IMG/VR virus record: IMGVR_UViG_3300018917_000004
Location: 1-52,415 of that record
Strand: one strand, 5' to 3'
DNA length: 52,415 nucleotides
Source of the DNA: a virus
Part shown: piece by piece, positions 4,018 to 52,415 of the stretch
How the letters are laid out: each line of letters starts with the position of its first letter
Position numbering within the stretch: position 1 is the stretch's first letter
Made by a program: the position numbers and the translations under genes
The notes under the pieces: model-generated
What the model was told of the DNA's origin: nothing
The model's database searches: none
What the model saw: the letters and a program-made list of their open reading frames with translations, nothing else

Positions 4018-4662
4018 TTACCCTAGTGTACCCGTGCCGTCATATTTAAACACAGGCTCACCTAGGGTACTGTAACCCAGTAGGAAACCTTGATACACTA
4101 CTTTACCTGATACTACCGCCGCACTGTAATTCCTGATTGACCTCTGGGCCTCTAGCCACTTAGGGGAGAACCGGGCAACACTCAGAGGCACGCGGACGTA
4201 ATAGCGTAGCTTAGGTGTCCCAAATTTACCCGGTAGCGTAAAGGGTAACCTGAGGTCGGCATCTTGCCATAGTTGATATGGTATGGCCTGTATGTCTAAG
4301 ACGCGCCTAAGGGCCGCTAGGGTGCCTATGTGGTTGAATAGCCAGTAGGACGCCGCTATCATGCCCCGTTTAACATCAGGGTGCCACTGGGTATCCCAAT
4401 ACTCATCAGCTAACCCTACTAACCACGCTAGGAAATCTAGGCTACTATCGGCCGCAGTTTCAACTTGTAGTTCTTTGTAGTACTGTTGCAACAAGGTGCT
4501 AGTGGCGGTTAAGTTTTCATCAGCCCAAATGGTTAGCCAATCGGTAACCTCATTATTCTGATAGCCTTCCGCTGGTAACCGGGCATAAACAGGCCTACCA
4601 ATGGCCCATGCTTCCTTAGCCCCTGTTACCCCTTGGTCAATTAGCATAACCTTATTTACCAC
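4018..4662 (-). CDS. Baseplate wedge protein, phage P2 gpI-like (tail protein I)
   Basis: The 214-aa product matches the P2 tail protein I pattern: an N-terminal extension, then LAWLVGLADEYWDTQWHPD and a helix ending VKRGMIAASYWLFNHIGTLAALRRVL around residues 80-143. In P2-like phages gpI works with baseplate J and gp25/gpW to build the baseplate wedge; here those partners lie 15 kb away at 19497-21107. The start is a GTG at 4662, five codons before an ATG; neither has a strong ribosome-binding site. The C-terminal 60 residues are Gly/Tyr-rich beta sequence. Confidence 0.75.
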   Translation of the reverse strand: MVNKVMLIDQGVTGAKEAWAIGRPVYARLPAEGYQNNEVTDWLTIWADENLTATSTLLQQYYKELQVETAADSSLDFLAWLVGLADEYWDTQWHPDVKRGMIAASYWLFNHIGTLAALRRVLDIQAIPYQLWQDADLRLPFTLPGKFGTPKLRYYVRVPLSVARFSPKWLEAQRSIRNYSAAVVSGKVVYQGFLLGYSTLGEPVFKYDGTGTLG

Positions 4663-4750
4663 TTTGTTTACTATATAGCTATATAGTTAATAATTTGCCT
4701 TACGGTGCCTAAGAAAACTAAATGCACTTTAAGGTACACTCTGCTACCTT

Positions 4751-4845
4751 CGCACACACAGTGGTACCACTTTTTATGATTGAACTACAACCCGCACTGG
4801 CACTAGGTCTTACCGTTTACTACGTATGGTACCATATGGTACCAC
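4751..4845. promoter_or_regulatory. Cluster of GGTACC-centred palindromes (locus 1)
   Basis: AGTGGTACCACT at 4760-4771, preceded by CGCACACAC, then ATGGTACCAT (4826-4835) and ATGGTACCAC (4836-4845). The extended word CACACACAGTGGTACCACTTTT recurs in part at 19333-19356 and 38480-38498. The palindromes look like dimeric-protein sites; their spacing of 76-94 bp is similar at all three loci. Confidence 0.5.
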
Positions 4846-4904
4846 GTATCAAAGTATACCCGGTATACGTAAGGGTAAATGAGGGCATTAAGAGACCGCG
4901 ATAA
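4776..4904 (+). CDS. Possible 42-aa membrane peptide
   Basis: A short frame opens at an ATG right after the AGTGGTACCACTTTTT palindrome. The peptide has one hydrophobic stretch (LALGLTVYYVWY) then a basic, Val/Tyr-rich tail (RIKVYPVYVRV). There is no ribosome-binding site, and the frame extends upstream to 4722. Similar palindromes precede short frames at 19360 and the membrane protein near 38535, the only reason to take it seriously. Confidence 0.25.
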   Translation: MIELQPALALGLTVYYVWYHMVPRIKVYPVYVRVNEGIKRPR

Positions 4905-4952
4905 CACCTGTACTACTTCATAACTATCAAGTAATATAAGGTATAAAAGTGA

Positions 4953-4980
4953 ACCCCTGTATCATTGTGATAACAGGGGT
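4953..4980. terminator. Hairpin terminator carrying GTGATAACA (copy 3)
   Basis: Arms ACCCCTGT/ACAGGGGT, loop ATCATTGTGATA. It lies in the gap left of the minus-strand gene 5059-5232 and downstream of the possible 42-aa frame. Confidence 0.7.
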
Positions 4981-5058
4981 CATTGTGGGTTAGAGGTTAA
5001 TCACGGCCACTGCCGCGACTGTCGTCTTCAGGGTCAATGAATATCATTGTGATAACAA

Positions 5059-5232
5059 CTAACTAAAGTGTGAATAGTACTTGACGTAACAACTGTCACA
5101 ATCACCGTTACCAGGGCAATCTAGACCTAAAGGGCAACTAGAACATACTAGCGTCCTGACAACACCCAACTGACTAACGGTACCCTTAGGGGCCGCGTGT
5201 CGTACTGTTTTCATTGAGGACTTGCGAGACAT
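5059..5232 (-). CDS. Cys-rich small protein, 57 aa (probable zinc-binding knuckle)
   Basis: A short frame between the long RNA unit and the hairpin at 4953. The N-terminus is basic (MSRKSSMKTVRHAAPKG), and residues 30-48 hold CSSC...CPGNGDCDSC, i.e. CxxC-x5-C-x5-C-x2-C, five cysteines of which four could bind Zn or Fe. Size and layout suit a zinc-ribbon-like DNA- or RNA-binding or anti-host protein. It has its own TATAAT (minus strand, near 5265) just past the RNA terminator at 5275-5292, and a weak AGG ribosome-binding site. Confidence 0.6.
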   Translation of the reverse strand: MSRKSSMKTVRHAAPKGTVSQLGVVRTLVCSSCPLGLDCPGNGDCDSCYVKYYSHFS

Positions 5233-5274
5233 AATAGTGACCTAAGAAACAATACTTTTATTATATACTAAAAT

Positions 5275-5292
5275 ACCCCGGTTTCCCAGGGT
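5275..5292 (-). terminator. GNRA-capped terminator at the 3' end of the long RNA unit
   Basis: On the minus strand ACCCTGG-GAAA-CCGGGGT forms a 7-bp stem (one G-U) with a GAAA tetraloop, followed by ATTTTAGTATA. It ends the ~970-nt gene-free stretch that starts at the promoter at 6249-6277. Confidence 0.65.
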
Positions 5293-6188
5293 TCATTAGG
5301 ATATTTAGTTCACTGCGAGGTTATTTGATGCCCTCTAGCCTTCCCTATTGCTTACTAGGCGTGTCAGTGACTCATCGTTGAGTCTAACAGAGACCGTTGG
5401 CTCATGATAGTCGAATATGGGTTCTCAGTTGCCCTACCTGCTCGGTTGTATAGTTTTCACTATTCGCTAGAAGTGGCGTTATTGACCTACGCTCACATTG
5501 AGCCGTTATTATTCACCCTAGCGCATCGTGGCTTTATGGGCCATTACTTCACCTTTTAGACCGTTAGTATCACCATCGCCCTACGTTGCACTACGGGCCT
5601 AAGTTCAAGATATTACTTCGAGTACTTAGAGCCGTTAGGCTCATTGGGGTCATAGCGTTGGCCGGTACTTCTTAAGAGCCGCGTGTTTCCTACGTTCTAT
5701 GATGCATCGCTGCATTGCACGGCTTGCCAAGGACATTTAAGTTATGCAAGTATTCTTATCTGGCATGGTAACCAAATATCAAACCGATTGCTACCAGTAC
5801 CTTAGAGGCCGTGACCACTCTGAGGTATTGATTGCTTCGGTGTGCCTTGTGCCCTTATTGGCATCAGTGCGACTGTTTCACTCTTGGGTAACTGTACTCA
5901 CTAAGGAGTCACGGTCACATGGTAGGTATAATTACTTACGAGTTAGTTAGGTCTCATCAGTGCGCCGGTTGGCTTACGTGTCAACACAACAGAGCCGGTT
6001 ATCACTGAATCTACTGAAAGCCTTAGGGTAATTAAGGCGGTTGGTGTTACTTCGTGTCTATAAGGGGTTATCGGTGAGCCTATTAGCGACCTATGCGAAC
6101 AGCTATCCTATCGTCAAAGCGTGGACTCTAGCAACTCGGTCAAGCTCGTGATGTTCCCTAGGCGACTCTAGGTAACGAGTGGTACTTG

Positions 6189-6227
6189 GTGCGACTGTGG
6201 CCTTCTGAGCTTCGAGTCTTGGTTAAC
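6189..6227 (-). repeat. 39-nt RNA element shared with 16506-16544
   Basis: Plus-strand GTGCGACTGTG, 11 variable bases, then TTCGAGTCTTGGTTAAC. Both copies start 22-28 nt downstream of a strong minus-strand -10. The outer GACT/AGTC can pair, and the variable centre pairs differently in each copy (GCU/GGC here, ACCU/AGGU at 16517), as compensatory change would predict. A degraded third copy is at 5867-5893. Confidence 0.6.
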
Positions 6228-6248
6228 CTTGTTTCCTCTCATGTCACT

Positions 6249-6277
6249 AATATAACGCTATTCGCCCTAGTGTGCAA
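6249..6277 (-). promoter_or_regulatory. Strong sigma70-like promoter of the long RNA unit
   Basis: Minus-strand TTGCAC (6272-6277), 17-bp spacer, TATATT (6249-6254). It points into the gene-free region 5275-6242, not toward a coding sequence. Confidence 0.7.
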
Positions 6278-6464
6278 CCTTTTAACCATCATTGTTAATT
6301 ATGTGTACGCAGGTTAGCTATAAAGCACTTTAATATAATTGTGATAACAAAGCTGCGCTTTAAGACCTAATTTAATTCATGTGATAATGTGATAACAAAA
6401 GTTAACTATATATAAATGAGGATAAAAGAGCCGTAAGGCTCATTGATAGAAACAGAGGTAAGCG

Positions 6465-7853
6465 ATGACCGTTATACAGTGCAAATTATATAGCAGTGGC
6501 AATGTGCCCTTAGTTGGCTATGTCGCCGTGACGCTTTCGGGCCGTGTGGTCAATACAGATACTAACAGCATCTTGGTGCCTCGTACCGATAAGTACCCCT
6601 TGGTAGCCGGTGCCGTCAATATCACCTTAGAGCCAACTGAAGATGACAGAACTACTTATAAATTCGAGATATACCATACGGAACAGGTGACCCCTGAGGC
6701 GACTGAGGACAACCCTACGCCATCGCCTATTACCGTTGAAAGCTTGGTTGACGCATTCTACGCAATGGTGCCTGATTACCTTACGCCTATCAAGTTAACT
6801 CAGCTAGCAAGGCAGACAGGTATCACTAGGGACTCAATGGATACTAGTTTAGTCACCGTGATTAAAAGGTTGATTGCTGACCCTGAGTTCTGGCAGGCCG
6901 CTAATACTAACCTGTTTCGCGTTAAAGGTGTGTATAATACAGCGTTCAGTTATATAAACGGGGACGTGGTTAACTTTGATGGCTCAGCGTGGATATGTGT
7001 GACACCTAACGCCATAACGGGCCAGAGTCCCCTACAATACCCAGGTGGTTGGCGGTTACTAGTAAGTAAAGGGGATACAGGGGCAGGGGTGACCGGCAAT
7101 ACAACTGCGTATGACAAGGATATTTGGGTAGATAATGTGGCACCGGGCCGCGTGGCCGTGAAGAATATTATTGAACAATTAGCCCGGAAGACTGACGTGG
7201 CACTGTTAGCCCCGATAGCCTCAGCTAACCTGGTGACGCCTAATCGCACAACTGACCCTTTGCTAACTGATAGGTCATCACAGATACCTACTACCAACTG
7301 GACACAAGCGCTGCTAGATGTCATGAGGAAGGCCTTGATACCAGTGGGGATGATAGGTGAATTCTTTAGTACAGCGGTGCCTACAGGATGGCTACAGTGT
7401 GATGGTAGGGTACTGGTTAGAGCAAGTTACCCGGCGCTATTCGCAGTACTCAGTACATCAGCTAATACTGGTGGCGAGTTAGCCACAGAGTTTAGGTTGC
7501 CTGATATGCGAGGTAGGGTATTGGTGGGCCTAGATGACATGACAACAGCACGAGGGGCCGCTAGTCGCATTGTACCGACTAATACCCTGGGGGCCTCTGG
7601 GGGCACACAGAAGCATCAATTAACTACCGCTGAGTTACCTAGCCACTCGCATAACCTATTCGGCTCAACTTACTATAACGGTGATTATTATGCCAGTGGC
7701 TCAGTGATAGCCGGTTACAACGCTAACAGAGGCCTTGTCAATAATAACCCTGGTGATACCTCAGCAGCTACAGTAACAACTGGTAGTAACACGGCTCATA
7801 ACATCATGCAACCATACATCAGTATTGTGTTTGCCATTTACACCGGTTTGTAA
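6465..7853 (+). CDS. Tail fibre / receptor-binding protein with tail-collar domain
   Basis: A 462-aa protein with GAGG 7 nt before the ATG. The N-terminal ~110 residues form a beta domain likely to attach to the baseplate. Residues ~150-200 (VYNTAFSYINGDVVNFDGSAW onward) resemble small carbohydrate-binding modules. The C-terminus is a phage tail-collar domain: GMIGEFFSTAVPTGWLQCDGR near 290, FRLPDMRGRVLVG, AELPSHSHN and the closing QPYISIVFAIY. Such proteins sit at fibre tips and contact host surface sugars. It leads the plus-strand fibre cluster 6465-10233 and is preceded by a GAGCC-GUAA-GGCTC hairpin and two GTGATAACA sites. Confidence 0.85.
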   Translation: MTVIQCKLYSSGNVPLVGYVAVTLSGRVVNTDTNSILVPRTDKYPLVAGAVNITLEPTEDDRTTYKFEIYHTEQVTPEATEDNPTPSPITVESLVDAFYAMVPDYLTPIKLTQLARQTGITRDSMDTSLVTVIKRLIADPEFWQAANTNLFRVKGVYNTAFSYINGDVVNFDGSAWICVTPNAITGQSPLQYPGGWRLLVSKGDTGAGVTGNTTAYDKDIWVDNVAPGRVAVKNIIEQLARKTDVALLAPIASANLVTPNRTTDPLLTDRSSQIPTTNWTQALLDVMRKALIPVGMIGEFFSTAVPTGWLQCDGRVLVRASYPALFAVLSTSANTGGELATEFRLPDMRGRVLVGLDDMTTARGAASRIVPTNTLGASGGTQKHQLTTAELPSHSHNLFGSTYYNGDYYASGSVIAGYNANRGLVNNNPGDTSAATVTTGSNTAHNIMQPYISIVFAIYTGL

Positions 7854-7917
7854 TTTGTTATCACATTATCACACGAGTTAACTAAGTATAAATAGTAGCA
7901 TTTAAGGATGAAATAGC

Positions 7918-9384
7918 GTGCCAGAGTATCCTAATATACCATTCAGCGACGGCCAGGAGTACACAGCAGAACTGGCTTACAAGGCCTTCTACTGCCCAGT
8001 GTTTGACGGTGCCACCAATTTATTAGGGCATCGTGAGGCAATTAGAGACGATGAGTTAAGCAATACGGGCATTAAGGCTGATGTTATCACATTGCGTGAT
8101 GGTTTCAAGTGTACTGCCGGTGCTGGCCTTGTAATCAACTATTCTTCTGGTATCATGAGAGATAGTAGTGATAATGTTATCACAAAGGCAGCGGGGCAAG
8201 TGTTAGCACCGGATAACGCTACATCTTACGTTTACATTGATGGCACTGATAACACAATTAAATGTAGTGTAACACGAAGTGTACTAAGGGCCACCTTAGC
8301 CAAAGTAGTGACGCTGGCAGGCAATATAACGTCAATAGCTGACCAGAGACACCCTGCCACGGTGAACGTTAGGCCACCAGCGTTTATCATTAAATCTTTC
8401 GGAGGTCAGAGTACAACAATTAAAATATGTACCCAAGGGGAGACACTGAAAGGCGTTATTGAATGTGGGTACTTTGAGATACCTGCGGGTGTAACGGTGA
8501 CTGTTGACCGTTTTGCCAAGGTGATATGCTCAGGGGCCGCGAATATATACGGTACAGCTAACGTCACACCACAGACACAAGGGCACCCTCGGACGAGCTT
8601 TGGTCTATTTACCTCAGGGGGATACTTAGGCTACCAACCGGGTGAGGGCCTGGGGAAGAACGGTGTACCTTATCACTACACTCAACAGCCCTATGGCTCA
8701 TCAGGCGGTATAGGGTACGTTAGTAATCGACCGGGTAACACGGTGACATCTTGGTGCTATCAGGAAACCGCAGGGCACGGCGGCGGCGCGTTTAGTATTG
8801 AAGCTGCCGGTGCCATCAGGATGTATGCCAGTGCGGTCATTACGGCTAAAGGTACCAACGGGGCTAAGGCAGGTAGTACTGATGCAGGCGTAACGCTACA
8901 ATGTATCGCTAGCGGTAGCGGTGGGGGCAGTGGAGGCCTAGTGTCATTCGTGTCGGCTACTAGTGTTGTTGTTGAAGTAGGGGCCACGGTGGACGTTAGA
9001 GGTGGCAATGGTGGTGATGGCTATATTCATACACCGGGGTACGGTGCGCCACTAGTAGCAGCACCGGGTACACCTGGGGGTGGTGGGTACTTTGTGACAA
9101 TAGCGCCAACCGTTAACACCACAGGCTTTACTTTTCTTAACGCTGGCGGCACTCATGGCCTCTGGGGCAGTCATTTAAATGGCGTGACCATAGTAAACTC
9201 AACTACCATTAGCTTCCTAGATACCACCTACGGCCTAGTGGGAGGCGGTTTAGGCGGTGCGTTTGGTGGTGCGGCGGGTGGCTTTAGTACCTATTTCAAC
9301 GGTACGCCACAGGTCGATTATGTAATTATGTTACCCGGTGGTGCCGGGGTGCATCATATTTCAAATAGCCTACCAACGGCTTAG
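7918..9384 (+). CDS. Glycine-rich tail fibre/adhesin protein
   Basis: Starts at a GTG with AGGA 9 nt upstream; 488 aa. The first ~160 residues look like a fibre-attachment domain, the middle is beta-rich, and residues ~290-480 contain long Gly-rich runs (GGGGYF, GGGLGGAFGGAAGG) like those of glycine-rich receptor-binding tips. The gene follows the collar-domain fibre with a 64-nt gap holding TTGTTATCAC-ATTATCAC. Two further motif copies lie inside its 5' third. The adhesin role is inferred from composition and position. Confidence 0.7.
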   Translation: MPEYPNIPFSDGQEYTAELAYKAFYCPVFDGATNLLGHREAIRDDELSNTGIKADVITLRDGFKCTAGAGLVINYSSGIMRDSSDNVITKAAGQVLAPDNATSYVYIDGTDNTIKCSVTRSVLRATLAKVVTLAGNITSIADQRHPATVNVRPPAFIIKSFGGQSTTIKICTQGETLKGVIECGYFEIPAGVTVTVDRFAKVICSGAANIYGTANVTPQTQGHPRTSFGLFTSGGYLGYQPGEGLGKNGVPYHYTQQPYGSSGGIGYVSNRPGNTVTSWCYQETAGHGGGAFSIEAAGAIRMYASAVITAKGTNGAKAGSTDAGVTLQCIASGSGGGSGGLVSFVSATSVVVEVGATVDVRGGNGGDGYIHTPGYGAPLVAAPGTPGGGGYFVTIAPTVNTTGFTFLNAGGTHGLWGSHLNGVTIVNSTTISFLDTTYGLVGGGLGGAFGGAAGGFSTYFNGTPQVDYVIMLPGGAGVHHISNSLPTA

Positions 9385-13159: not shown

Positions 13160-13222
13160 AATATAGCACCTAGTTATCCCTGTGAACTAAATAAGAGTTT
13201 AAGATAACTAATGAGTTTACAG
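13160..13222 (-). promoter_or_regulatory. Promoter with upstream TAACTAATGAG site (repeat-domain operon)
   Basis: Extended -10 TGC-TATATT (13160-13165), TTCACA 15 bp upstream, and ATAACTAATGAGTTTACAG at 13204-13222 starting 39 bp upstream of the -10. The site lies 27 bp left of the plus-strand start at 13249, so it could also affect that gene. Confidence 0.6.
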
Positions 13223-16342: not shown

Positions 16343-16424
16343 GTTACCGCCACTTAACTGACTGACCCTATATATCATTATGTGTTAAAGTACGTCACCG
16401 ATGGTAAATGATGAGCCTAACGGC

Positions 16425-16565
16425 TATAAATACCTGAAGGAAACTCAGGTAACTAACGCACGTAGTGCTAACAATAATTCTTTAAGGCCTTAGGGGGGCT
16501 ACCGAGTGCGACTGTGACCTAGTAGGTTTCGAGTCTTGGTTAACTGGGTACCCTTGAGGCTTAAC
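16425..16565 (-). ncRNA. Candidate small RNA (~140 nt) between tube and chaperone genes
   Basis: The 263-bp gap between 16342 and 16606 has no ORF but carries a minus-strand promoter (16572-16601). Next comes the 39-nt element shared with the long RNA unit (16506-16544), a GCAC-UAC-GUGC hairpin (near 16455-16468), and the stem ACCTGA/TCAGGT (16432-16450) followed by ATTTATA as terminator. It would run against the surrounding tail genes. Function unknown. Confidence 0.5.
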
Positions 16566-16571
16566 TATTTA

Positions 16572-16601
16572 AATATAGCACACAGTAAGCCCTGAGGGTA
16601 A
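16572..16601 (-). promoter_or_regulatory. Promoter of the 16.4-kb small RNA unit
   Basis: Minus-strand TTACCC (16596-16601), 18-bp spacer, extended -10 TGC-TATATT (16572-16577). The only sequence downstream on this strand before the tube gene is non-coding. Confidence 0.55.
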
Positions 16602-16605
16602 CGTA

Positions 16606-16932
16606 ATGACCAGTAATAAGCAATACTTATTTAATGAAGCCGGTGATTTAGTGGTGCCTATGCTTTACACGTTAGGCTATGAGGCAGTGACGCTAAGGGA
16701 ACCTAAGGCGCGTGATATTAAAACGATGCGGCGTCATGCAATCGCGTATACAAAGCAGAATGCAGGGGCACCAATTGATGATATTACTACTTTGGAGATA
16801 GCGATAACCGTACTGTGTACTAGTCATGAGTTAACGGTAAAACAAATAGACGAGTGGGACGCAGAGGACATGATGGAGGTAGGCAGCGCCCTGAGTACCT
16901 TTCGTGTCTTTAAGAACTACATCAACGCATGA
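16606..16932 (+). CDS. Tail assembly chaperone (P2 gpE / Mu gp41-like), upstream frame
   Basis: 108 aa, GAGG 8 nt before the ATG. REPKARDIKTMRRHAIAY, then a hydrophobic helix and ELTVKQIDEWDAEDMMEVGSAL match the gpE/gp41 family that coats the tape measure before tube assembly. It lies between tube and tape measure, where such chaperones are found, and its 3' end overlaps the frame 16904-17158, with which it probably makes a frameshifted longer product. Confidence 0.75.
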   Translation: MTSNKQYLFNEAGDLVVPMLYTLGYEAVTLREPKARDIKTMRRHAIAYTKQNAGAPIDDITTLEIAITVLCTSHELTVKQIDEWDAEDMMEVGSALSTFRVFKNYINA

Positions 16933-17158
16933 TGACATAGTTTTCGTTGTACAAGGCCGTAGTTTTACCTTGTACCAACTGAAGCAATGTGTGATAGCAG
17001 CGTGCGGCGGTGTGCTGAATGGCTTCTATACTTCCTATGACGATATGGCGATATGGGAGGTCATAGAGGCAATTGAGGCCACCCAAGAGCTAAACAGTGA
17101 CTCTGATGTCTCGCAGGATGAAACAGGCGACTGGTTGGAATCGATGGCCTCAGATTAA
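16894..17158 (+). CDS. Tail assembly chaperone, frameshifted extension
   Basis: This frame is open from a stop at 16893 to 17158 and lies in the +1 frame (equivalently -2) relative to 16606-16932. It has no ATG before residue ~48 and no ribosome-binding site, while a frameshift within 16894-16930 (for instance at CTTTCG or TCTTTAAG) would join it to the upstream frame. Tail-chaperone pairs made by frameshifting are a rule in long-tailed phages (-1 in P2 and lambda, -2 in Mu). A GTG at 16904 is the alternative start. The product is acidic at its end. Confidence 0.6.
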
Positions 17159-17180
17159 CCCTATGTAACAATGTGATAAC

Positions 17181-19124
17181 ATGAACCCCCGTATACAACT
17201 AGAGCTAACCGCTAGTGATAAGATGACCCCGGCCTTGATATTGGCACAAAGGGGCATAGACCAACTAGGCAACCGTGCGGCAGCATTAAACCAATATATG
17301 CAGCGGTTGAACCAAAGTACTTCAGGGTATCAGAGGGTAGTACAGGGGTTATCAGGGGCCGCTAATGGCGTTAGTCAGGCCCTAGGCGCAATGGTGCCAA
17401 ATACGGCGATAGCGGGGATGCTAGCGGCAGCAGGGGCAGCATATAAACTAGTAGGTGCATTGAATGAAGGTGGCCGCGTGCAAACTCAGTCACTAGCAAC
17501 AACGAGTGATATCGCAACTAACCTAGGGGTAGAATTTGGCATTGCTCGGAAAGAAGTCGAGCTAATGAACACTAAAATATCCCAGATGGCCGCGAGTCTA
17601 CCAGGTGAAACCAAACAATACAATGAGATGTTTGGGGCCATAGGAGGCTCATTAGCCAAAATGTACAAAGGGAATATAGCAGGGTTCCAAGAGGCCTCAC
17701 AGGATATCACAAAGCGTGCTGGTGTGTTGGCGTCAGTAAGGGGTATTGGAGGCGCTCAGGCCGGTAGTGTGATTGAAAGGTTGATTAGTGGCAACGGGGG
17801 CTTTGGTGAACTAGCGTTGAACGATGTCATCCAGAAGAACGCAATATTTAAACAAGCGTTAATAGATGGCATGAGGGCTATGGGTAAAGACCAGAAAGAC
17901 TGGCAAAACCTGAGTTCTGAGATGCGCCTAAGTATCGTAAGGAAGGCATTAAAGACCGCGACACCTGATAGCCTCATTGACCAATTTAATGGCACGTTTG
18001 AATCAGTTACCCAGGGCATTAAGTCGTACTGGTTTGACCTGCAAGGCGGTGTATTCGGTGTACTGAGGCAGGTAGAAGGCTCAAAGGGGTCACGGTCGGT
18101 ACTCGATGCGGTAGCGGGGGCACTAGAGCAAATGACGAGGGCCGGTAATGCCCTTATGAATCTAGGTAGTGCTAAGGGCCTAAACTTCGACCCAATGTTA
18201 GCGCTAATTACCTTCTTTGACTCAGTGACCCAGGTACTAAACGGTGTCGAGTACTTTATCCGAAGTGGCGGCAAGTTACCTAAATTCAACTTTGACTTTG
18301 ATATCACTAAATACCTAAAGAACTTAAGTAACATAGTACCCCAGTATTTAAACGATGCCATACACGCCATACAGAGTGCAACTAAGGGCACAGGTGTCTC
18401 TAACATACTAGGTGGCTTAAGTCAAGTAACTAATGGCCTAATGGGTATATTTAGCTCAGTGTTTGCCAAGGTAGATTGGTCGGCAGTGGGTGAAATAGTG
18501 GGACGCATAGCGACTCAGGCCTTAATAGGTGCTGGTAGGTATGTATTGACATTGAACTACGCCGGTATGCTAGGGGTCATATTTAACATATTGGTGGCCC
18601 TCGGTAAGCTAATAGGTGGCGCATTGCAAGGCGTGATACTAGCTGGTATTGATGCGGTAGTAGGTGGCCTTAAGGCGGCCCTAGGCTTTGCAGGTGCATT
18701 GTGGCAAGGTTTGGTCGATGGCGTAAAAAGCTTTATCGATAAGGTAACAAGTTGGTTAAGTAATATAGTACTAAATAACCCTGTGAGTCAAGGGGTGCAA
18801 GCGGTGTCAAGTTTCGTTGCTGACCCTATAGGCACTACGGGCAACTTTATAAAAGAAAAGATATTAGGGCAACCGGCCGCGCCAACGCCATCAGTGGGAG
18901 CAGGGGCAACAGCAGCACCGGGGCAACCGATAGCGCCAATGACACCGGGGGCACCAACGCCACTCAAGCCAGCTAACGTAAATAGTCGTAAAGTAGCATA
19001 CACTACGAATACTTATAGCCCTAGTATTAGTGTGGCCCAGAATGAATCATCAGGGTCATTAGTGGCCAGCTTAGGTTCAATACTTGAATCACAGTACAAT
19101 GAGTTCATAAGTGGTTTAGTGTAA
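17181..19124 (+). CDS. Tape measure protein
   Basis: 647 aa, located just after the chaperone frames. The first 90 residues are helical; the middle and C-terminal parts contain long hydrophobic Gly/Ala-rich stretches (LIGGALQGVILAGIDAVVGGLKAAL) typical of tape measures, and residues ~575-605 form a Pro/Ala linker. It sets tail length and is ejected into the host. The ATG overlaps the GTGATAACA motif (TGTGATAACATG) with no Shine-Dalgarno. The stop is followed by GAGCC-UAAC-GGCCC. Confidence 0.85.
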   Translation: MNPRIQLELTASDKMTPALILAQRGIDQLGNRAAALNQYMQRLNQSTSGYQRVVQGLSGAANGVSQALGAMVPNTAIAGMLAAAGAAYKLVGALNEGGRVQTQSLATTSDIATNLGVEFGIARKEVELMNTKISQMAASLPGETKQYNEMFGAIGGSLAKMYKGNIAGFQEASQDITKRAGVLASVRGIGGAQAGSVIERLISGNGGFGELALNDVIQKNAIFKQALIDGMRAMGKDQKDWQNLSSEMRLSIVRKALKTATPDSLIDQFNGTFESVTQGIKSYWFDLQGGVFGVLRQVEGSKGSRSVLDAVAGALEQMTRAGNALMNLGSAKGLNFDPMLALITFFDSVTQVLNGVEYFIRSGGKLPKFNFDFDITKYLKNLSNIVPQYLNDAIHAIQSATKGTGVSNILGGLSQVTNGLMGIFSSVFAKVDWSAVGEIVGRIATQALIGAGRYVLTLNYAGMLGVIFNILVALGKLIGGALQGVILAGIDAVVGGLKAALGFAGALWQGLVDGVKSFIDKVTSWLSNIVLNNPVSQGVQAVSSFVADPIGTTGNFIKEKILGQPAAPTPSVGAGATAAPGQPIAPMTPGAPTPLKPANVNSRKVAYTTNTYSPSISVAQNESSGSLVASLGSILESQYNEFISGLV

Positions 19125-19332
19125 TGTGAGCCTAACGGCCCTAAGTCACTTGTTATAATTGTTATCACAACGTATACTTAGATAACTTAAGTAGCATAGG
19201 GCACGCGTCGCAGACAGTGGTACCCGGATATAATTAGGGTAACGCATTGTTACTAAGTTACCTAAGTTAGAAGCGGTGGCAGTGGGTAGTTTCAGAAAGA
19301 AAATAGTACTTCAAGGTGTTAGCCATATTCCT

Positions 19333-19436
19333 CACACACACAGTGGTACCACTTTTCAAATGACCATTCATGCGCCCCAAAGCCCTTGGTGTATATGGTG
19401 GCGACTGAGGCCCCTATTTCAGATAGTGGTACCACT
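19333..19436. promoter_or_regulatory. Cluster of GGTACC-centred palindromes (locus 2)
   Basis: Perfect AGTGGTACCACT at 19342-19353 and 19425-19436, 83 bp apart, with a half-matching AGTGGTACCC at 19216-19225. The gap 19125-19496 between the convergent tape measure and baseplate J genes otherwise holds only a TTGTTATCACAA site (19159) and the possible 30-aa frame at 19360. Confidence 0.5.
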
Positions 19437-19452
19437 ATGCTGCATAACGTGA
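19360..19452 (+). CDS. Doubtful 30-aa peptide frame
   Basis: A short frame starting 7 nt after the first palindrome: a Trp-rich start (MTIHAPQSPWCIWW) and hydrophobic end (LFQIVVPLCCIT). The second palindrome lies inside it. It is listed only because a short frame follows the same palindrome at 4776; coding is unproven. Confidence 0.12.
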   Translation: MTIHAPQSPWCIWWRLRPLFQIVVPLCCIT

Positions 19453-19496
19453 AATGACGTACACTGTGTTGTTACGGTGATTCCCGGAACATAAGG

Positions 19497-20663
19497 CTAG
19501 TCAGGGTCATTTAGGAGTAATGGTGTAAAGGTGCTACTTACACCTCTTGGGTCAACTAGGGTAATTGAGAGTTCAATAAGGTTAGGTGAGGTGTACCGTT
19601 GAGGCATAGGGTAATTTACGGTATCGAGGTTCACAGTGACGTATTGAATACCAGTGATACCCGGCACGGCCCTAATGATATACTCAAGCTCCTTAATGCG
19701 AAGCGTGGCCCCCGTAGTGTAATTAGATGGCTTAAGGTAGGCCACAATGGTACTAAATACGTCATCAGATAATTCAGGTGAGATTTGGGAGGTCTCAAGG
19801 ACACAAGAGACACTAACGTCAATGAGTTCAACCGGCGAGACCCACAAGGCGCTACCAGTGAAAACCAGTGGCAATAGTTCAGCCCTAATGACACTACAGA
19901 CATCAGGGCTAGCAGGGTTACCGAGGGCATCAACGACAAATAGATGCACATGGCCTAATGAGCCGTCCTGTTTAGCTTGGTTCATCGTAGGGATAGCTAA
20001 GGCCTTACTACCGTACCCTAGGATATCTTGGGCCGCGCTTTCATAGTCGGCTAGGGTCACCAGGGTATCGCGTCGCCTAAGTGCCTCTTGGCCCCTACGC
20101 ACTGTTTCGAGCAGTGGCTCAATGTCAGTGCCGCCAGCGATGTCCTCAGTATTATATATCATACTGACGTAATTTAAGTTAGTACTAGTTTGCACGAGGC
20201 CGAGCTTGGGCACGTTGCCAATAACGCCAACCTTAGAGGCCTGTACAGCCACGGTACCCTCATAGGCCCTGGGTGGTATAACTAACTCCTGTGTGGTCAC
20301 AAAGTACACGTTATCACGAAAGGGTATCAAGTGGCCCGCAGGTAGAATAAAGTTATCCTGTAGTGCTTGTGATAACAGTACAGTTACTTTCCCTGAGGCC
20401 TTGGTGCCAAGTGACCGTTGTACCCCAAAGAGCCTAAGTAGCTCAATAGCTAATGCAGTAGGTAGTTTATTCAGGTACCAAAATAACTCAGCAATAGCGA
20501 ACACTTCACCCGTTAGCACCCCGTTAGCAACAGTGGCCTTCTTAAAATCACGTAACCTATTACCACTGGCGGCGATAGTGCGGTTAACGGCCTGCTCGAA
20601 CAACTCTTGGTCATTACGGGGGTCAAGTACTACCCTAGGTAAATTAGATATCTTATATTCCAT
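19497..20663 (-). CDS. Baseplate J-like protein
   Basis: 388 aa. The conserved baseplate J core is clear: RAYEGTVAVQASKVGVIGNVPKLG, DIAGGTDIEPLLETVRRGQEALRR and DYESAAQDILG around residues 130-215, followed by a C-terminal beta domain. It forms the wedge ring with gp25 (20754-21107) and tail protein I. The start lacks a Shine-Dalgarno, and the leader has three tandem motif copies (20705-20735). One more copy inside encodes LLSQ. Confidence 0.85.
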   Translation of the reverse strand: MEYKISNLPRVVLDPRNDQELFEQAVNRTIAASGNRLRDFKKATVANGVLTGEVFAIAELFWYLNKLPTALAIELLRLFGVQRSLGTKASGKVTVLLSQALQDNFILPAGHLIPFRDNVYFVTTQELVIPPRAYEGTVAVQASKVGVIGNVPKLGLVQTSTNLNYVSMIYNTEDIAGGTDIEPLLETVRRGQEALRRRDTLVTLADYESAAQDILGYGSKALAIPTMNQAKQDGSLGHVHLFVVDALGNPASPDVCSVIRAELLPLVFTGSALWVSPVELIDVSVSCVLETSQISPELSDDVFSTIVAYLKPSNYTTGATLRIKELEYIIRAVPGITGIQYVTVNLDTVNYPMPQRYTSPNLIELSITLVDPRGVSSTFTPLLLNDPD

Positions 20664-39446: not shown

Positions 39447-39483
39447 GGCACTGCGTGCGCTAAGTACACTATGAAAACTAAAT

Positions 39484-39509
39484 ACCCTGTTATCACAAGG
39501 ACACAGGGT
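39484..39509. terminator. Hairpin terminator carrying TGTTATCAC (copy 8)
   Basis: Arms ACCCTGT/ACAGGGT between 39096-39446 (plus) and the minus-strand gene 39562-39708; identical in its core to copies 7 and 10. Confidence 0.75.
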
Positions 39510-39561
39510 GCTTAGTGTTATTTAGTTGTTAGTTAATTAAAGGCCGCTCACCTCCCTAGTG

Positions 39562-39708
39562 TTACTTAGTTTCCTTAGTGGGTTTTGGTTGGCCCTCAGG
39601 CACTACCGGGGTATTGGTTGGCTTTGAGATACGAACGTCCTCCTGTTGAATCTGGTCTAGCACGCTTTGTACTCGGTCAGCTTGTGAATCAGTGGCCACT
39701 ATTGTCAT
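39562..39708 (-). CDS. Small charged protein, 48 aa
   Basis: AGGAG lies 5 nt before the ATG at 39708. The peptide has an amphipathic helix (DSQADRVQSVLDQIQQEDV) and a Pro/Lys-rich tail (TNTPVVPEGQPKPTKETK). It is the only convincing gene downstream of the promoter at 40518-40546, about 800 nt away. Function unknown. Confidence 0.55.
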   Translation of the reverse strand: MTIVATDSQADRVQSVLDQIQQEDVRISKPTNTPVVPEGQPKPTKETK

Positions 39709-39719
39709 TAGCTCCTTCT

Positions 39720-40511
39720 TGTTGACTAGGGTGTACAGGGTGACCTAATGGTCAACGGTAGTTATATTACTACCTGCTTTCTCATAATGTGACTTTGTTA
39801 TAACAGAGGCATTGTGAGCCTCAGGGCCCCAAGTTGACTTGCACAACCTCTAATTACTCCTTCTGGCATCTTGACTACAATGTAGGTTTATTAGCTGAAC
39901 TGAGTTCTTAGGAAACTATCGGGGCCGTGAGTGAGACCTTAGGGTACTAAATGGCTTAGTAGGCGCATAGAGTACCCTCGTATCTCTATAATGTTAACTA
40001 GCTTTCACCGCCTCTACTCGGTTAGTTCTAGTTGACATATGGTAACTTAATTACTTAGTAGCTTTGCTTGCCTCTGTGTATCTCAGGTGGTCTCTGTTTA
40101 TCATCAGCGGTAGAGGTTGACACCAATAACTCACTTTGACTTACTTTGACACTCGTTGACTCACTTGGCTATTTTAGCTTTCAGTTACGTTTGTTTGAAT
40201 CAGGTGAAATAAGGGAACCTGGCAACCCTAATATACTTATTAGGCTATATTAGACCCTTAGGCGTTTTGAGTAGCCGCCTTTCCTACCTAGTCCTTTAGG
40301 TGAACTAGAACCTTTATGACCCTAAGGTCAGTTGGTTTTGCCACGTCCCTTGATTCAAGTGGCACTTCCTAGTCTTAATGCTGGGTACCAGTTATCAGGT
40401 GTGGCGTGAGGTTTCCAGGGTTTCTACGGCTTCCACATTTTACTGCGGCTTCCAGACTATCTCGTTTAAACGGCGTCTGAGCTTTTCGCTTTCACCCTCT
40501 CTGTCCCTCAC
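39720..40511 (-). ncRNA. Second candidate long structured RNA (~0.8 kb)
   Basis: The stretch between 39708 and 40555 has no gene on either strand but begins with a consensus minus-strand promoter (40518-40546). The transcript folds well by eye: CAGAC...GTCTG around CGTTTAAACG (near 40450-40480), GCCAC...GTGGC enclosing CTTG-AAT-CAAG (near 40340-40365), CTAGT...ACTAG (near 40285-40310), GGCG...CGCC (near 40260-40280), AATATA...TATATT (near 40230-40252) and GGTAGT...ACTACC (39757-39774). The 3' end is uncertain, and the RNA may also be a long leader for 39562-39708. Confidence 0.5.
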
Positions 40512-40517
40512 TTCTCT

Positions 40518-40546
40518 AATATATCGCGCTTAGCCCTGAGTGTCAA
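40518..40546 (-). promoter_or_regulatory. Consensus sigma70-type promoter of the second long RNA unit
   Basis: TTGACA (40541-40546), exactly 17 bp, TATATT (40518-40523) on the minus strand: the best-matching promoter in the window. Confidence 0.8.
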
Positions 40547-40554
40547 CCATTTAA

Positions 40555-48676: not shown

Positions 48677-51346
48677 TTAAACTGTGACTTCACCGGATTC
48701 TATCGCGGCCATGAGGTCAGTTGCTGTTATCACAATGCCCTCTGGTAGACCCTGTGGGAACTCAGGGCACTGGCAGAATGGCTTGCCATCGTCTGACTTA
48801 GCAGTTTTCGAGAGGTGTTGGGTAACATCGATTTCCTCAAACCACGCTTTACTACTCGGTATTAAATCAAGGTTTAAGCGGTCAATGAAGGCGCAAGTGG
48901 TCATGACGTGCGCTAGGTTCAATGCATACGCCGCTTGCAATACATGCTCCTTATTGACAACAGCACGTATCTCGTCATGAATGGTGAGCATCAGGCGGCC
49001 ATCAATACCATAGTACTTAAAGAAGTATGAGGTTAATACTACCAAGATGTCACGCCAGTCAGCACCAGAGGCCTGAACTATCCTGTTAACCATCGTGGTC
49101 TTAAAGTTTCTACCGACATCTTCAAGGGCCTTGGTTACCTTGCAGCGTAACACGGGTGTAGGTTGACCTGATTCCTTCGTTATCTTCTCGATAGCTGTGA
49201 ACGCTTCGGAAGCTAGGCCCCCCGTGAAGCCCCCACGGCCATCCTGTTTGCCTACAAAGTTATCAGTGAACTTAATGGCCATCTCATTACAGTACTCTTC
49301 AGACCACGTGGGCATAACTTTCATTAGGTACTCACGGCACCCTTTAACCCTCTGCCCATAAAGACCACCATAAACCTCAGGCTTCACGTCACTACGCTTC
49401 ATACCTTGCTTAGCGGCCATGATTGAATGAACGTCGGTCTTAGTGCTACTGGTGCCACACATGACCGATACTGACAACGGTGAGGCACCTATGAATGGCA
49501 GTGTCTGTCGGTAGTCGAGTTTCACTTGGTCAGCAAGCCATGCGGCCACCGTTAACTCTTGTGAGCTAATGTCACCACCGATTATCACATAACCCTCAGG
49601 GGCCTCGACTAACGTTTTAACACCTGTACCCCATCGTTTAGCCTTAGGGTTAGGCATAACCTGACTGAAGTTATCGGCACAGCGGCCCGTGATGGTACCT
49701 GTAACCGTAATTTGGAACAGGGTGACCGGGTAGCCCTCAGGACACTCGACGTGAAGCGCTTTCACACGTTTCCTAATTGATGTCCAGTTAACTAACGAGT
49801 TCATTGCTTTAATCGCTGTCTTCAGGTCACCCGGTGCGCTCAACATACCCTCTTCCACAGGTACACTAAAGCCCTTGATAAACAACTGTGTGACTCGCTG
49901 GCCCCGGTCTTCAGGGTGCGGTAGTGCCTCACGTTGCCCTTGGTCATCTAAGGTATAATAGCCTAACTCATCACACCACAGCACCGCACGGTCACGCCAT
50001 GTTACATTAAGTAGTAGCGGTGTAACACGAGTGGCCATATGGTACGGTTTAGCACGGTGGTTCCTATACCACACAGGTTGGCCCTTGGTCTTACCAGTTA
50101 GCGCCGGTGTCCAGTCGAGCTGTGCTAATTGCGGTGATTCTCGTGCCAGTAGTTCACACCAACCTTTCACGATAGCCTCAACATTACCCTTATTCAACTG
50201 CTTACCAAACTGACTCAAATAATCTTGAAATGACTCGTTATACATTACGTACACTTCATGCACCCTATTGTCAACAACGGCATCTAGTTGCTCACGTATA
50301 GCTTGAGTGGCTGTCTCAACGTCACGGTAATAACTAGGGTAACGAGTGGTAGAAAGTGGGCACCAATAGGAACCCATGAGAAGCTGTGCGGTCTGTGTGG
50401 TCGGTGAGGGCCGGTGTATCTTATTCTCCTCATACACCTTCTGAAACACTTGGTATGTCGCTATGACATCTTTGTAGCAATACTGAAGCACGCTGCTGAA
50501 TTCTTGACGACAATAATCATAGCCGTACTTTATTAACTCATCACGTACCCCTTTGTCAAGCTTTTGGTCGAAGTAGAATGAGTAGATAGCGTCAAGGCCG
50601 TTGGTAGCAGTTTCATCAGACCACATCGGTGCGAAGGGGTCACTTTCAGACATCTTGAATACTATACGTTGCTGGTTACCCATGCCGCGTACTGGTATCC
50701 ACATTGCCATAGTGTCAGCAAAATAGTTACCTGATGGCGTCCTAAGGTACTCAGGGGCCAGAAACTGCCTATCGTAAGGTACGTTATGCCCTACTACAAC
50801 ACAGTTACGACCAAATGGCACCGTGCTAACTAGGTTATCTGGGTTCCACTGCCACACATAGATATCAGTCGCCGTAATGCCCACACAGCACACCGGGAAC
50901 CATTGTGAACTATCGCCGTCCTCCCAGGGCACTAGTCGTTCAATAGGTATATTTACTGTCTCGAAGTCTAATGTGATAACAATGCCATCAGGGGGTTGTG
51001 GTATTGACTGCCACTTTCCAGGTACATTAGCCGACCTCTGAAACCAACCGGGTCGGGCCGGTGGTAACGTGAAGCCACAAGGTAAATAATCACCGCTAGC
51101 GTACTCATTCAACCGAGAAATAAGGGGGGCCCCCAGGTCGGCTGTTGCCTTCCTAATGACCTCTTTATACGTACCGAGTTCTGGCACCGGCAAGTTAACG
51201 GTAGTACTGTTATCAATCGAGGCCTCTAGACCAAAGGGCCTTAGTTTATCCTGTTGCAACTTACGCTCATAGGGGTGAACGTCACGCGGTAGGCGTCCTA
51301 TTAGCTGCAAGTGTAGCTTGTTGCTTAACTTGTTTATGCTGACCAT
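48677..51346 (-). CDS. Family A DNA polymerase, mitochondrial Pol-gamma-like
   Basis: 889 aa. Proofreading exonuclease: ExoI LDFET (126-130), ExoII GHNVPYDR (186-193), ExoIII YCYKDVIAT (289-297), plus MWIPVRGMGNQQR as in Pol gamma. Polymerase: motif A GGDISSQEL (590-598), motif B KRSDVKPEVYGGLYG (650-664) and motif C TIHDEIR (788-794). The HDEIR and SQEL forms, and a long ~200-residue spacer between the two halves, are the Pol-gamma rather than Pol I/T7 pattern. It replicates the phage genome with the SF3 helicase; no accessory subunit is recognised. The ribosome-binding site is distant. Confidence 0.9.
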   Translation of the reverse strand: MVSINKLSNKLHLQLIGRLPRDVHPYERKLQQDKLRPFGLEASIDNSTTVNLPVPELGTYKEVIRKATADLGAPLISRLNEYASGDYLPCGFTLPPARPGWFQRSANVPGKWQSIPQPPDGIVITLDFETVNIPIERLVPWEDGDSSQWFPVCCVGITATDIYVWQWNPDNLVSTVPFGRNCVVVGHNVPYDRQFLAPEYLRTPSGNYFADTMAMWIPVRGMGNQQRIVFKMSESDPFAPMWSDETATNGLDAIYSFYFDQKLDKGVRDELIKYGYDYCRQEFSSVLQYCYKDVIATYQVFQKVYEENKIHRPSPTTQTAQLLMGSYWCPLSTTRYPSYYRDVETATQAIREQLDAVVDNRVHEVYVMYNESFQDYLSQFGKQLNKGNVEAIVKGWCELLARESPQLAQLDWTPALTGKTKGQPVWYRNHRAKPYHMATRVTPLLLNVTWRDRAVLWCDELGYYTLDDQGQREALPHPEDRGQRVTQLFIKGFSVPVEEGMLSAPGDLKTAIKAMNSLVNWTSIRKRVKALHVECPEGYPVTLFQITVTGTITGRCADNFSQVMPNPKAKRWGTGVKTLVEAPEGYVIIGGDISSQELTVAAWLADQVKLDYRQTLPFIGASPLSVSVMCGTSSTKTDVHSIMAAKQGMKRSDVKPEVYGGLYGQRVKGCREYLMKVMPTWSEEYCNEMAIKFTDNFVGKQDGRGGFTGGLASEAFTAIEKITKESGQPTPVLRCKVTKALEDVGRNFKTTMVNRIVQASGADWRDILVVLTSYFFKYYGIDGRLMLTIHDEIRAVVNKEHVLQAAYALNLAHVMTTCAFIDRLNLDLIPSSKAWFEEIDVTQHLSKTAKSDDGKPFCQCPEFPQGLPEGIVITATDLMAAIESGEVTV

Positions 51347-51461: not shown

Positions 51462-52367
51462 TTAGAACTGAGGGCTATAGGACTCAGTTAGGGCTGAGCT
51501 AAGGTCACCGGGCCGGTTAGAGGCATTGCTGATAATGAAGGTAATGATTGAATCAAGGGCCGGTGGGAGACCCTCAGGGTACAATGATTCAATCTGGGGT
51601 GCATAGCGGTTAACCATGTACTCTAGTTTCATGAGTTCTTCATTATAGGCCCCTGAGTAGTGTGAGGGTGCCTTAGGGTATTGCCAATGTCGATTGGTGG
51701 TTAAAGTGCCTACCAGTTTTTCAAATTTATTCACCAGTGGGCTAGTGTTATCCATTTTGCACTTTTTGAATGTTTCAATGAATGACTCACGTAGTCTGTG
51801 GTCAACACCTTCTATCGCTGTAATCTTGAGGCCCGGTATGCTCTCTAGTTCCCGGCAGAAATGGGAGGCGACTGCATTACCTAGTATATGCCACGTCCAC
51901 GGTGTCTTTCGGGCTACGTTCATATACTCTTGTCTTACTTTACCTTCCTTAGGTGCCTTACACGCTATAGCGGCTGCTAGGGCCCTCATAGAGACCTCTG
52001 CTAGCTCACGAGGGTATGCAATATCACTTGGTTGATACAAACGGCCCTTGATATCATCCATGACATTATGGTACTTGTTATCACGTCGGTTATAATCATA
52101 ATAGCCGTCATCGTCAGACCAAGTGAACCCTGATACCTCTAAGTATCTGTCAACGGCCATACGTATCAACCAACACGTCAACAGGTGATATTGTTCATCA
52201 AAGTGGATGTCTTCTAGAACGTTTTCCCACATGGTTTTCAGGTTAGCGTTAGAGACATCAGGTAAGTTATACTGCTCTGAGATTTCCTCTTTACTCTTGG
52301 TACGCAGGAAGCACGCACGGTCACGCATACCCTGGTTAGCCGATAGCAACGCATCAGTTGAGATATC
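51462..52367 (-). CDS. SF3/D5-like replicative helicase, C-terminal part
   Basis: Continuation of the gene at 1-1056. The frame from 52334 leftwards encodes QGMRDRACFLRTKSKEE onward to the stop at 51462 (290 residues), and 52335-52367 repeats the sequence of 1-33, encoding ISTDALLSAN. The apparent start further right (52412) lies in the fold-back copy and is an artefact: residues upstream of that point are reverse-complement coding. The C-terminal region is helical with DDDGYYDYNRRDNKYHN in the middle. Stop codon 78 nt from the operator at 51416. Confidence 0.8.
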   Translation of the reverse strand, partial: DISTDALLSANQGMRDRACFLRTKSKEEISEQYNLPDVSNANLKTMWENVLEDIHFDEQYHLLTCWLIRMAVDRYLEVSGFTWSDDDGYYDYNRRDNKYHNVMDDIKGRLYQPSDIAYPRELAEVSMRALAAAIACKAPKEGKVRQEYMNVARKTPWTWHILGNAVASHFCRELESIPGLKITAIEGVDHRLRESFIETFKKCKMDNTSPLVNKFEKLVGTLTTNRHWQYPKAPSHYSGAYNEELMKLEYMVNRYAPQIESLYPEGLPPALDSIITFIISNASNRPGDLSSALTESYSPQF

Positions 52368-52415
52368 GGCTAACCAGGGTATGCGTGACCGTGCGTGCTT
52401 CCTGCGTACCAAGAG
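52294..52415. repeat. Terminal fold-back: 52-bp perfect inverted repeat with 18-bp spacer
   Basis: 52294-52345 and 52364-52415 are exact reverse complements. The spacer and inner arm carry the 34 bases also found at 1-34. Since the helicase frame continues perfectly from position 1 to 52334, the last 47 bases are best read as an assembly or library fold-back, the true circle being about 52,334 bp. Confidence 0.85.

Follow-up and report, generated by a model that had tools for sequence, protein, structure and literature searches.

We describe a predicted transcription unit of almost 1 kb, u1, that runs on the minus strand from a promoter to a terminator-like hairpin and has no usable open reading frame (ORF). 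It lies in a virus record of 52,415 bases, analyzed here in full as "the window". Our best explanation, for which the evidence is evenly balanced, is that u1 is a phage gene whose product, a long untranslated RNA, would function as RNA in infection, with a relative from a second unit, u2. By kind, we rate it as a phage-encoded long non-coding RNA, and we infer that this RNA is transcribed, stable and functional.

In the proposed scheme, transcription would run leftwards from ~6242, driven by a sigma-70-type promoter that is the phage's own and of a class that several protein genes also use. The resulting RNA of ~975 nt would carry an mRNA-type leader with no start codon behind it and no usable ORF, would stop at a GAAA-capped terminator near 5266, and would act as RNA during infection alongside its u2 relative. 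As for mechanism, our guess, of low weight, is that the RNA acts in trans, binding host or phage machinery through its ribosome-binding-type leader and its folded body while staying untranslated. The two largely non-coding units occupy ~2 kb of a 52-kb phage under one promoter class, and would offer a small, testable system outside known families, in which the shared promoter tells which genes are co-expressed with them.

A promoter-to-terminator unit without a gene

The features of u1 and its immediate downstream region are as follows.

6249..6277, minus strand: u1 promoter, read in the sequence as TTGCAC (6277-6272), 17 nt, TATATT (6254-6249)
6213..6248, minus strand: purine-rich mRNA-type leader AGTGACATGAGAGGAAACAAGGTTAACC, which aligns without gaps to those at 2125, 11523, 22570, 22870 and 29611
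5266..6242, minus strand: predicted untranslated transcript of u1, ~975 nt, A-rich, with no ORF above 28 aa and none preceded by a ribosome site
5266..5292, minus strand: GAAA-capped terminator-like hairpin of 7 bp, ACCCTGG-GAAA-CCGGGGT, then the U-rich tail ATTTTAGTAT
5059..5232, minus strand: Cys-rich ORF of 57 aa just downstream of the terminator, which read-through alone would make part of the unit

The original prediction held that neither strand carries a convincing ORF, and examination of 5275-6246 bears this out. The longest minus-strand ORF has 28 aa, as compared to a mean of 57 aa in dinucleotide shuffles, 0.9% of which are as short, and the longest plus-strand ORF has 68 aa, as in shuffles (mean 71). 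The minus strand contains 85 stop triplets versus 60 +/- 5 in shuffles, with the caveat that TGA is over-represented across the genome. No Shine-Dalgarno-like site was found at any minus-strand ORF of at least 12 aa in u1, and codon scores were near zero in all frames.

The GNRA-capped terminator that had been predicted was located at 5292-5266; with its flanks, the hairpin folds at -15.0 kcal/mol (z -2.9), and it is followed by the letters ATTTTAG, a U tract that is only moderate. The 57-aa Cys-rich ORF beyond it could be assigned to no confident family and had no tblastn match in phages. Judged from the sequence, u1 has what would be expected of an autonomous RNA gene, namely its own promoter, its own terminator and no ORF. 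The central claim of a promoter-to-terminator unit without a gene is supported, and it is strengthened by the promoter class and by u2.

The u1 promoter belongs to a class that serves protein genes

The minus-strand promoter TTGCAC-17-TATATT is present as originally described, at 6277-6249. A matrix covering promoter plus leader identified seven strong sites, each of them on the minus strand, with scores of 34-49 bits versus a chance maximum of 14.5; five of these precede protein genes (2125, 11523, 22570, 22870 and 29611), and the other two are those of u1 (6268) and u2 (40537). When the matrix was built from the five gene-associated promoters only, u1 (32.4 bits) and u2 (29.4 bits) ranked next, above chance and ahead of a following site at 15.7 bits, in a test that is not wholly independent, since those five had first been found through a matrix seeded by u1 and u2. 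Weaker sites of the class, likewise on the minus strand and ahead of protein genes, were seen at 13179, 24939 and 1113.

The phage's own mRNA units at the five gene-associated sites thus resemble u1 in promoter, purine-rich leader and strand, but differ in that each has a protein gene and an ATG ~30-50 nt after the -10 hexamer. As read from the sequence, this ATG lies 29-30 nt past the hexamer at four of the five sites and ~51 nt past it at the other; the u1 leader has none at the corresponding place.

A second ORF-poor unit has a promoter like that of u1

In a self-comparison of the window, the u1 promoter region was matched at the head of the one other large gap that is poor in ORFs, 39447-40554, which had been absent from the original prediction. 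The features identified in this gap are listed below.

40518..40546, minus strand: u2 promoter, TTGACA, 17 nt, TATATT; 80% identity with the u1 promoter region over 54 columns
39480..40511 (about), minus strand: u2, second ORF-poor unit, ~1,030 nt, folding z -3.5
39562..39708, minus strand: ORF of 48 aa near the u2 3' end, preceded by a good ribosome site, AAGGAG
39480..39515, minus strand: u2 terminator-like hairpin, -14.8 kcal/mol, z -3.5

The two units are the largest ORF-poor gaps of the genome. The earlier statement that genes elsewhere in it overlap or abut does not hold, given this second gap of ~1.1 kb and the fact that intergenic gaps of 50-300 nt are common in the window.

Both u1 and u2 begin with a promoter from a class having only seven strong members, and both end in terminator-like hairpins. 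Their 5' ends align with a score of 68.5, versus a shuffle maximum of 47. Outside the 5' end, the best alignment is that of the two 3' ends, terminator included, at 43.5; shuffle maxima were 41 in one run and 44.5 in another, in which 1/200 shuffles scored as well, and since the value lies so close to these maxima, the 3' similarity is marginal. The interiors are unrelated, and hexamers common to both units were not above shuffles (15/300 as good).

The mRNA-type leader, together with the plausible 48-aa ORF, suggests that u2, at least, may be an mRNA. One could also imagine that each unit is a long 5' leader controlling a small downstream ORF, that of 48 aa (39562-39708) in u2 and, via read-through of the hairpin, that of 57 aa (5059-5232) in u1. 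A small same-strand ORF is indeed found at or just past the 3' end of both units. We nevertheless regard this arrangement as quite improbable: the u1 hairpin is terminator-like and precedes the 57-aa ORF, the two small proteins do not resemble each other on inspection and belong to no confident family, and the leaders of other genes in the promoter class measure just ~30-50 nt.

A 5' element of u1 recurs at a third site

Part of the u1 5' region is found once more in the window.

6189..6227, minus strand: u1 5' element GTTAACCAAGACTCGAA..CACAGTCGCAC, with a possible two-helix fold, repeated at 16506-16544 with 85% identity over 39 nt
16506..16544, minus strand: u3, where the u1 5' element recurs, within the gap 16343-16605 and downstream of a degenerate promoter copy

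The 39-nt element can be folded as GACU/AGUC around a small hairpin, and all seven pairs form in both copies. The copies differ at one A-U/G-C and one C-G/U-G pair, the latter pairing only if the RNA is read from the minus strand. These are, however, two sequences, too few for a test, and shuffles equal the value half the time for a structure that was picked after viewing; the folding of the element was not better than that of shuffles.

The gap that holds u3 also matches the interior of u1, in that 5588-5644 (minus) and 16411-16468 (plus) agree at 78% over 58 nt. This match includes a GAGCC-TAAC-GGCTC hairpin, variants of which recur near other gene ends.

Folding and comparison with known large RNAs

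The original prediction saw in u1 a candidate giant structured RNA, recalling GOLLD and ROOL, and could match it to neither. That lack of a match was confirmed: an Rfam scan of u1, at the gathering score and at E<=10, returned only chance matches, with none to GOLLD, ROOL, HEARO or OLE. The Rfam ROOL model (RF03087) did find its positive controls, two true ROOL RNAs from a plasmid and a phage, and a ROOL control search in 13 genomes found none. No homologue of u1 was found in phage, plasmid or IMG/VR searches. By sequence comparison, u1 is therefore an orphan, a member of no family tested. We also considered a diversity-generating retroelement or group II intron, and rejected it: the genome has no RVT_1 reverse transcriptase, and no intron RNA model matches u1.

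Minimum-energy folding gave z values of -0.8 (-1.2 in another run) for the u1 minus strand and -2.9 for its plus strand, and of -3.5 and -2.5 for the minus and plus strands of u2. The two true ROOL RNAs scored -2.6 and -1.3 on the sense strand and ~0 on the other. Since true ROOL RNAs reach just these values, the test has little power; judged against them, u1 is neither supported nor excluded as a structured RNA, and u2 is in range. Unlike the ROOL controls, u1 folds better on the opposite strand, and its local folding windows were no better than coding sequence. The A content of the minus strand is 0.314 in u1 and 0.342 in u2, higher than in nearly all coding sense strands of the window, the value for the true ROOL RNAs being 0.325.

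As a special case of the untranslated RNA gene, the 975 nt could form one compact, intricately folded structure, perhaps a multimer, working like GOLLD or ROOL. The size, the phage location, the own promoter and terminator, the ROOL-like A-richness and the folding of u2 all point this way, while the lack of an Rfam match, the absence of tRNA genes from the window, the failure of the u1 minus strand to fold below shuffles and the resemblance of its local windows to coding sequence point the other, so that we entertain such a giant RNA tentatively. Of the original proposal, the geneless promoter-to-terminator unit stands, and the structure itself draws no support from Rfam or from the folding of u1. 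To our knowledge, no function has been established for GOLLD, ROOL and other giant phage RNAs.

ROOL resembles u1 in being phage-encoded, long, ORF-less and A-rich, but measures ~550-570 nt versus ~975 nt; u1 has no covariance-model match and no tRNA island. GOLLD is comparable in size class, many GOLLD RNAs exceeding 800 nt, and in phage location (PMC12286853), but its model fails to match u1 and no tRNA lies near the unit. tRNA islands often adjoin GOLLD and ROOL, a frequent and not obligatory association (PMC12286853). HEARO and OLE are comparable as large bacterial non-coding RNAs, but neither of their Rfam models matches it.

A bolder proposal, which we think unlikely, is that u1 and u2 are two related ~1-kb phage RNA genes of an undescribed family, whose large ordered RNAs would grow from mRNA-type leaders devoid of start codons and, while remaining untranslated, might retain host machinery such as ribosomal subunits.

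Genomic setting and relatives

The virus encodes TerL, portal, tail sheath, baseplate and tail collar proteins, a C5 methylase and a DNA polymerase gamma-like polymerase. Its best TerL match is that of Leptolyngbya phage Lbo402-yong5 (39%), followed by Microcystis and Nostoc/Anabaena phages, and its polymerase matches mostly cyanophages. On these comparisons, the window is a cyanophage-like myovirus with distant relatives only, and without close kin, in the collections searched; its host group appears to be the cyanobacteria. The polymerase gene (48677-51346) encodes a relative of the mitochondrial-type (gamma) enzyme, as in several cyanophages.

Queries of IMG/VR with single proteins returned no relative, and the collar protein gave distant tail-domain matches only. 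Two DNA patterns were also searched in IMG/VR, one yielding a single chance match within a coding repeat and the other none. There was no match to u1 in blastn of phages and plasmids and none in genome contigs for the TerL alignment; for the methylase, no cyanobacterium was among the 80 loci listed from these contigs. The nearest relatives found in IMG/VR, by means of the TerL alignment, are a 21-kb fragment, G001 (TerL 53%), and a 36-kb fragment, G002 (41%). Neither u1 nor u2 was found in these two fragments, identified from TerL and sheath alignments, and tblastx of the u1 interval against the relatives gave no match.

In the window, u1 lies within the 1.8 kb that separate the tail I gene, on the minus strand at 4018-4662, from the collar gene, on the plus strand at 6465-7853. 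In G001, the genes for tail I and collar directly adjoin and point the same way, with no gene between them, and no homologue with an intact protein was seen in this place. Compared with G001, the collar/fibre block shows the reverse orientation with respect to tail I (4018-9384 versus 16512-20560 of G001), with u1 at the break; u1 therefore came or went with the rearrangement. The GGA/TGA trinucleotide bias of the phage is also present in u1, which is therefore not a recent insert or a contaminant. This long residence argues that u1 is of use, as does the fact that a genome of 52 kb contains a second unit.

Given mRNA-type signals at the 5' end and differing interiors in u1 and u2, the main rival to an untranslated RNA gene is a unit that has lost its protein gene, keeping promoter, leader and terminator while the ORF was eroded or replaced by filler. 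It would account for a promoter and leader that are those of protein genes, for two units with common ends and unshared interiors, and for the position of u1 at an inversion break relative to G001. We find it rather unlikely in that no frame on either strand is depleted of stops or scores as coding, the u1 interval has no tblastx match to relatives, and it would be unusual for a 52-kb phage to keep two 1-kb remnants.

That u1 is an element acting at the DNA level, for instance an origin of replication or a region for packaging, seems very improbable. The cumulative GC-skew minimum does fall at ~4.5-6.5 kb, but the skew tracks gene direction, which switches at u1; an element of this sort would not be expected to have a promoter and a terminator, and the motif TGTGATAACA, repeated genome-wide, is absent from u1. 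This 10-mer occurs in 52 copies on both strands together, versus 0.1 expected, 28 of them intergenic (sites include 4966, 5048, 6340, 6388, 17172 and 37551). Some copies lie within terminator-like hairpins or just before genes.

The window contains no GATC in its 52,415 bases, ~120 being expected from trinucleotide counts. GGA/TCC is depleted ~2.3-fold across it, as compared to little or no GGA depletion in G001 and G002. Together, these observations suggest that host restriction or another defence is strongly avoided. Finally, bases 1-34 of the window recur at 52335-52368, 81 bases before its end, where their start follows once more in inverted form; this may be a terminal feature or an effect of assembly.
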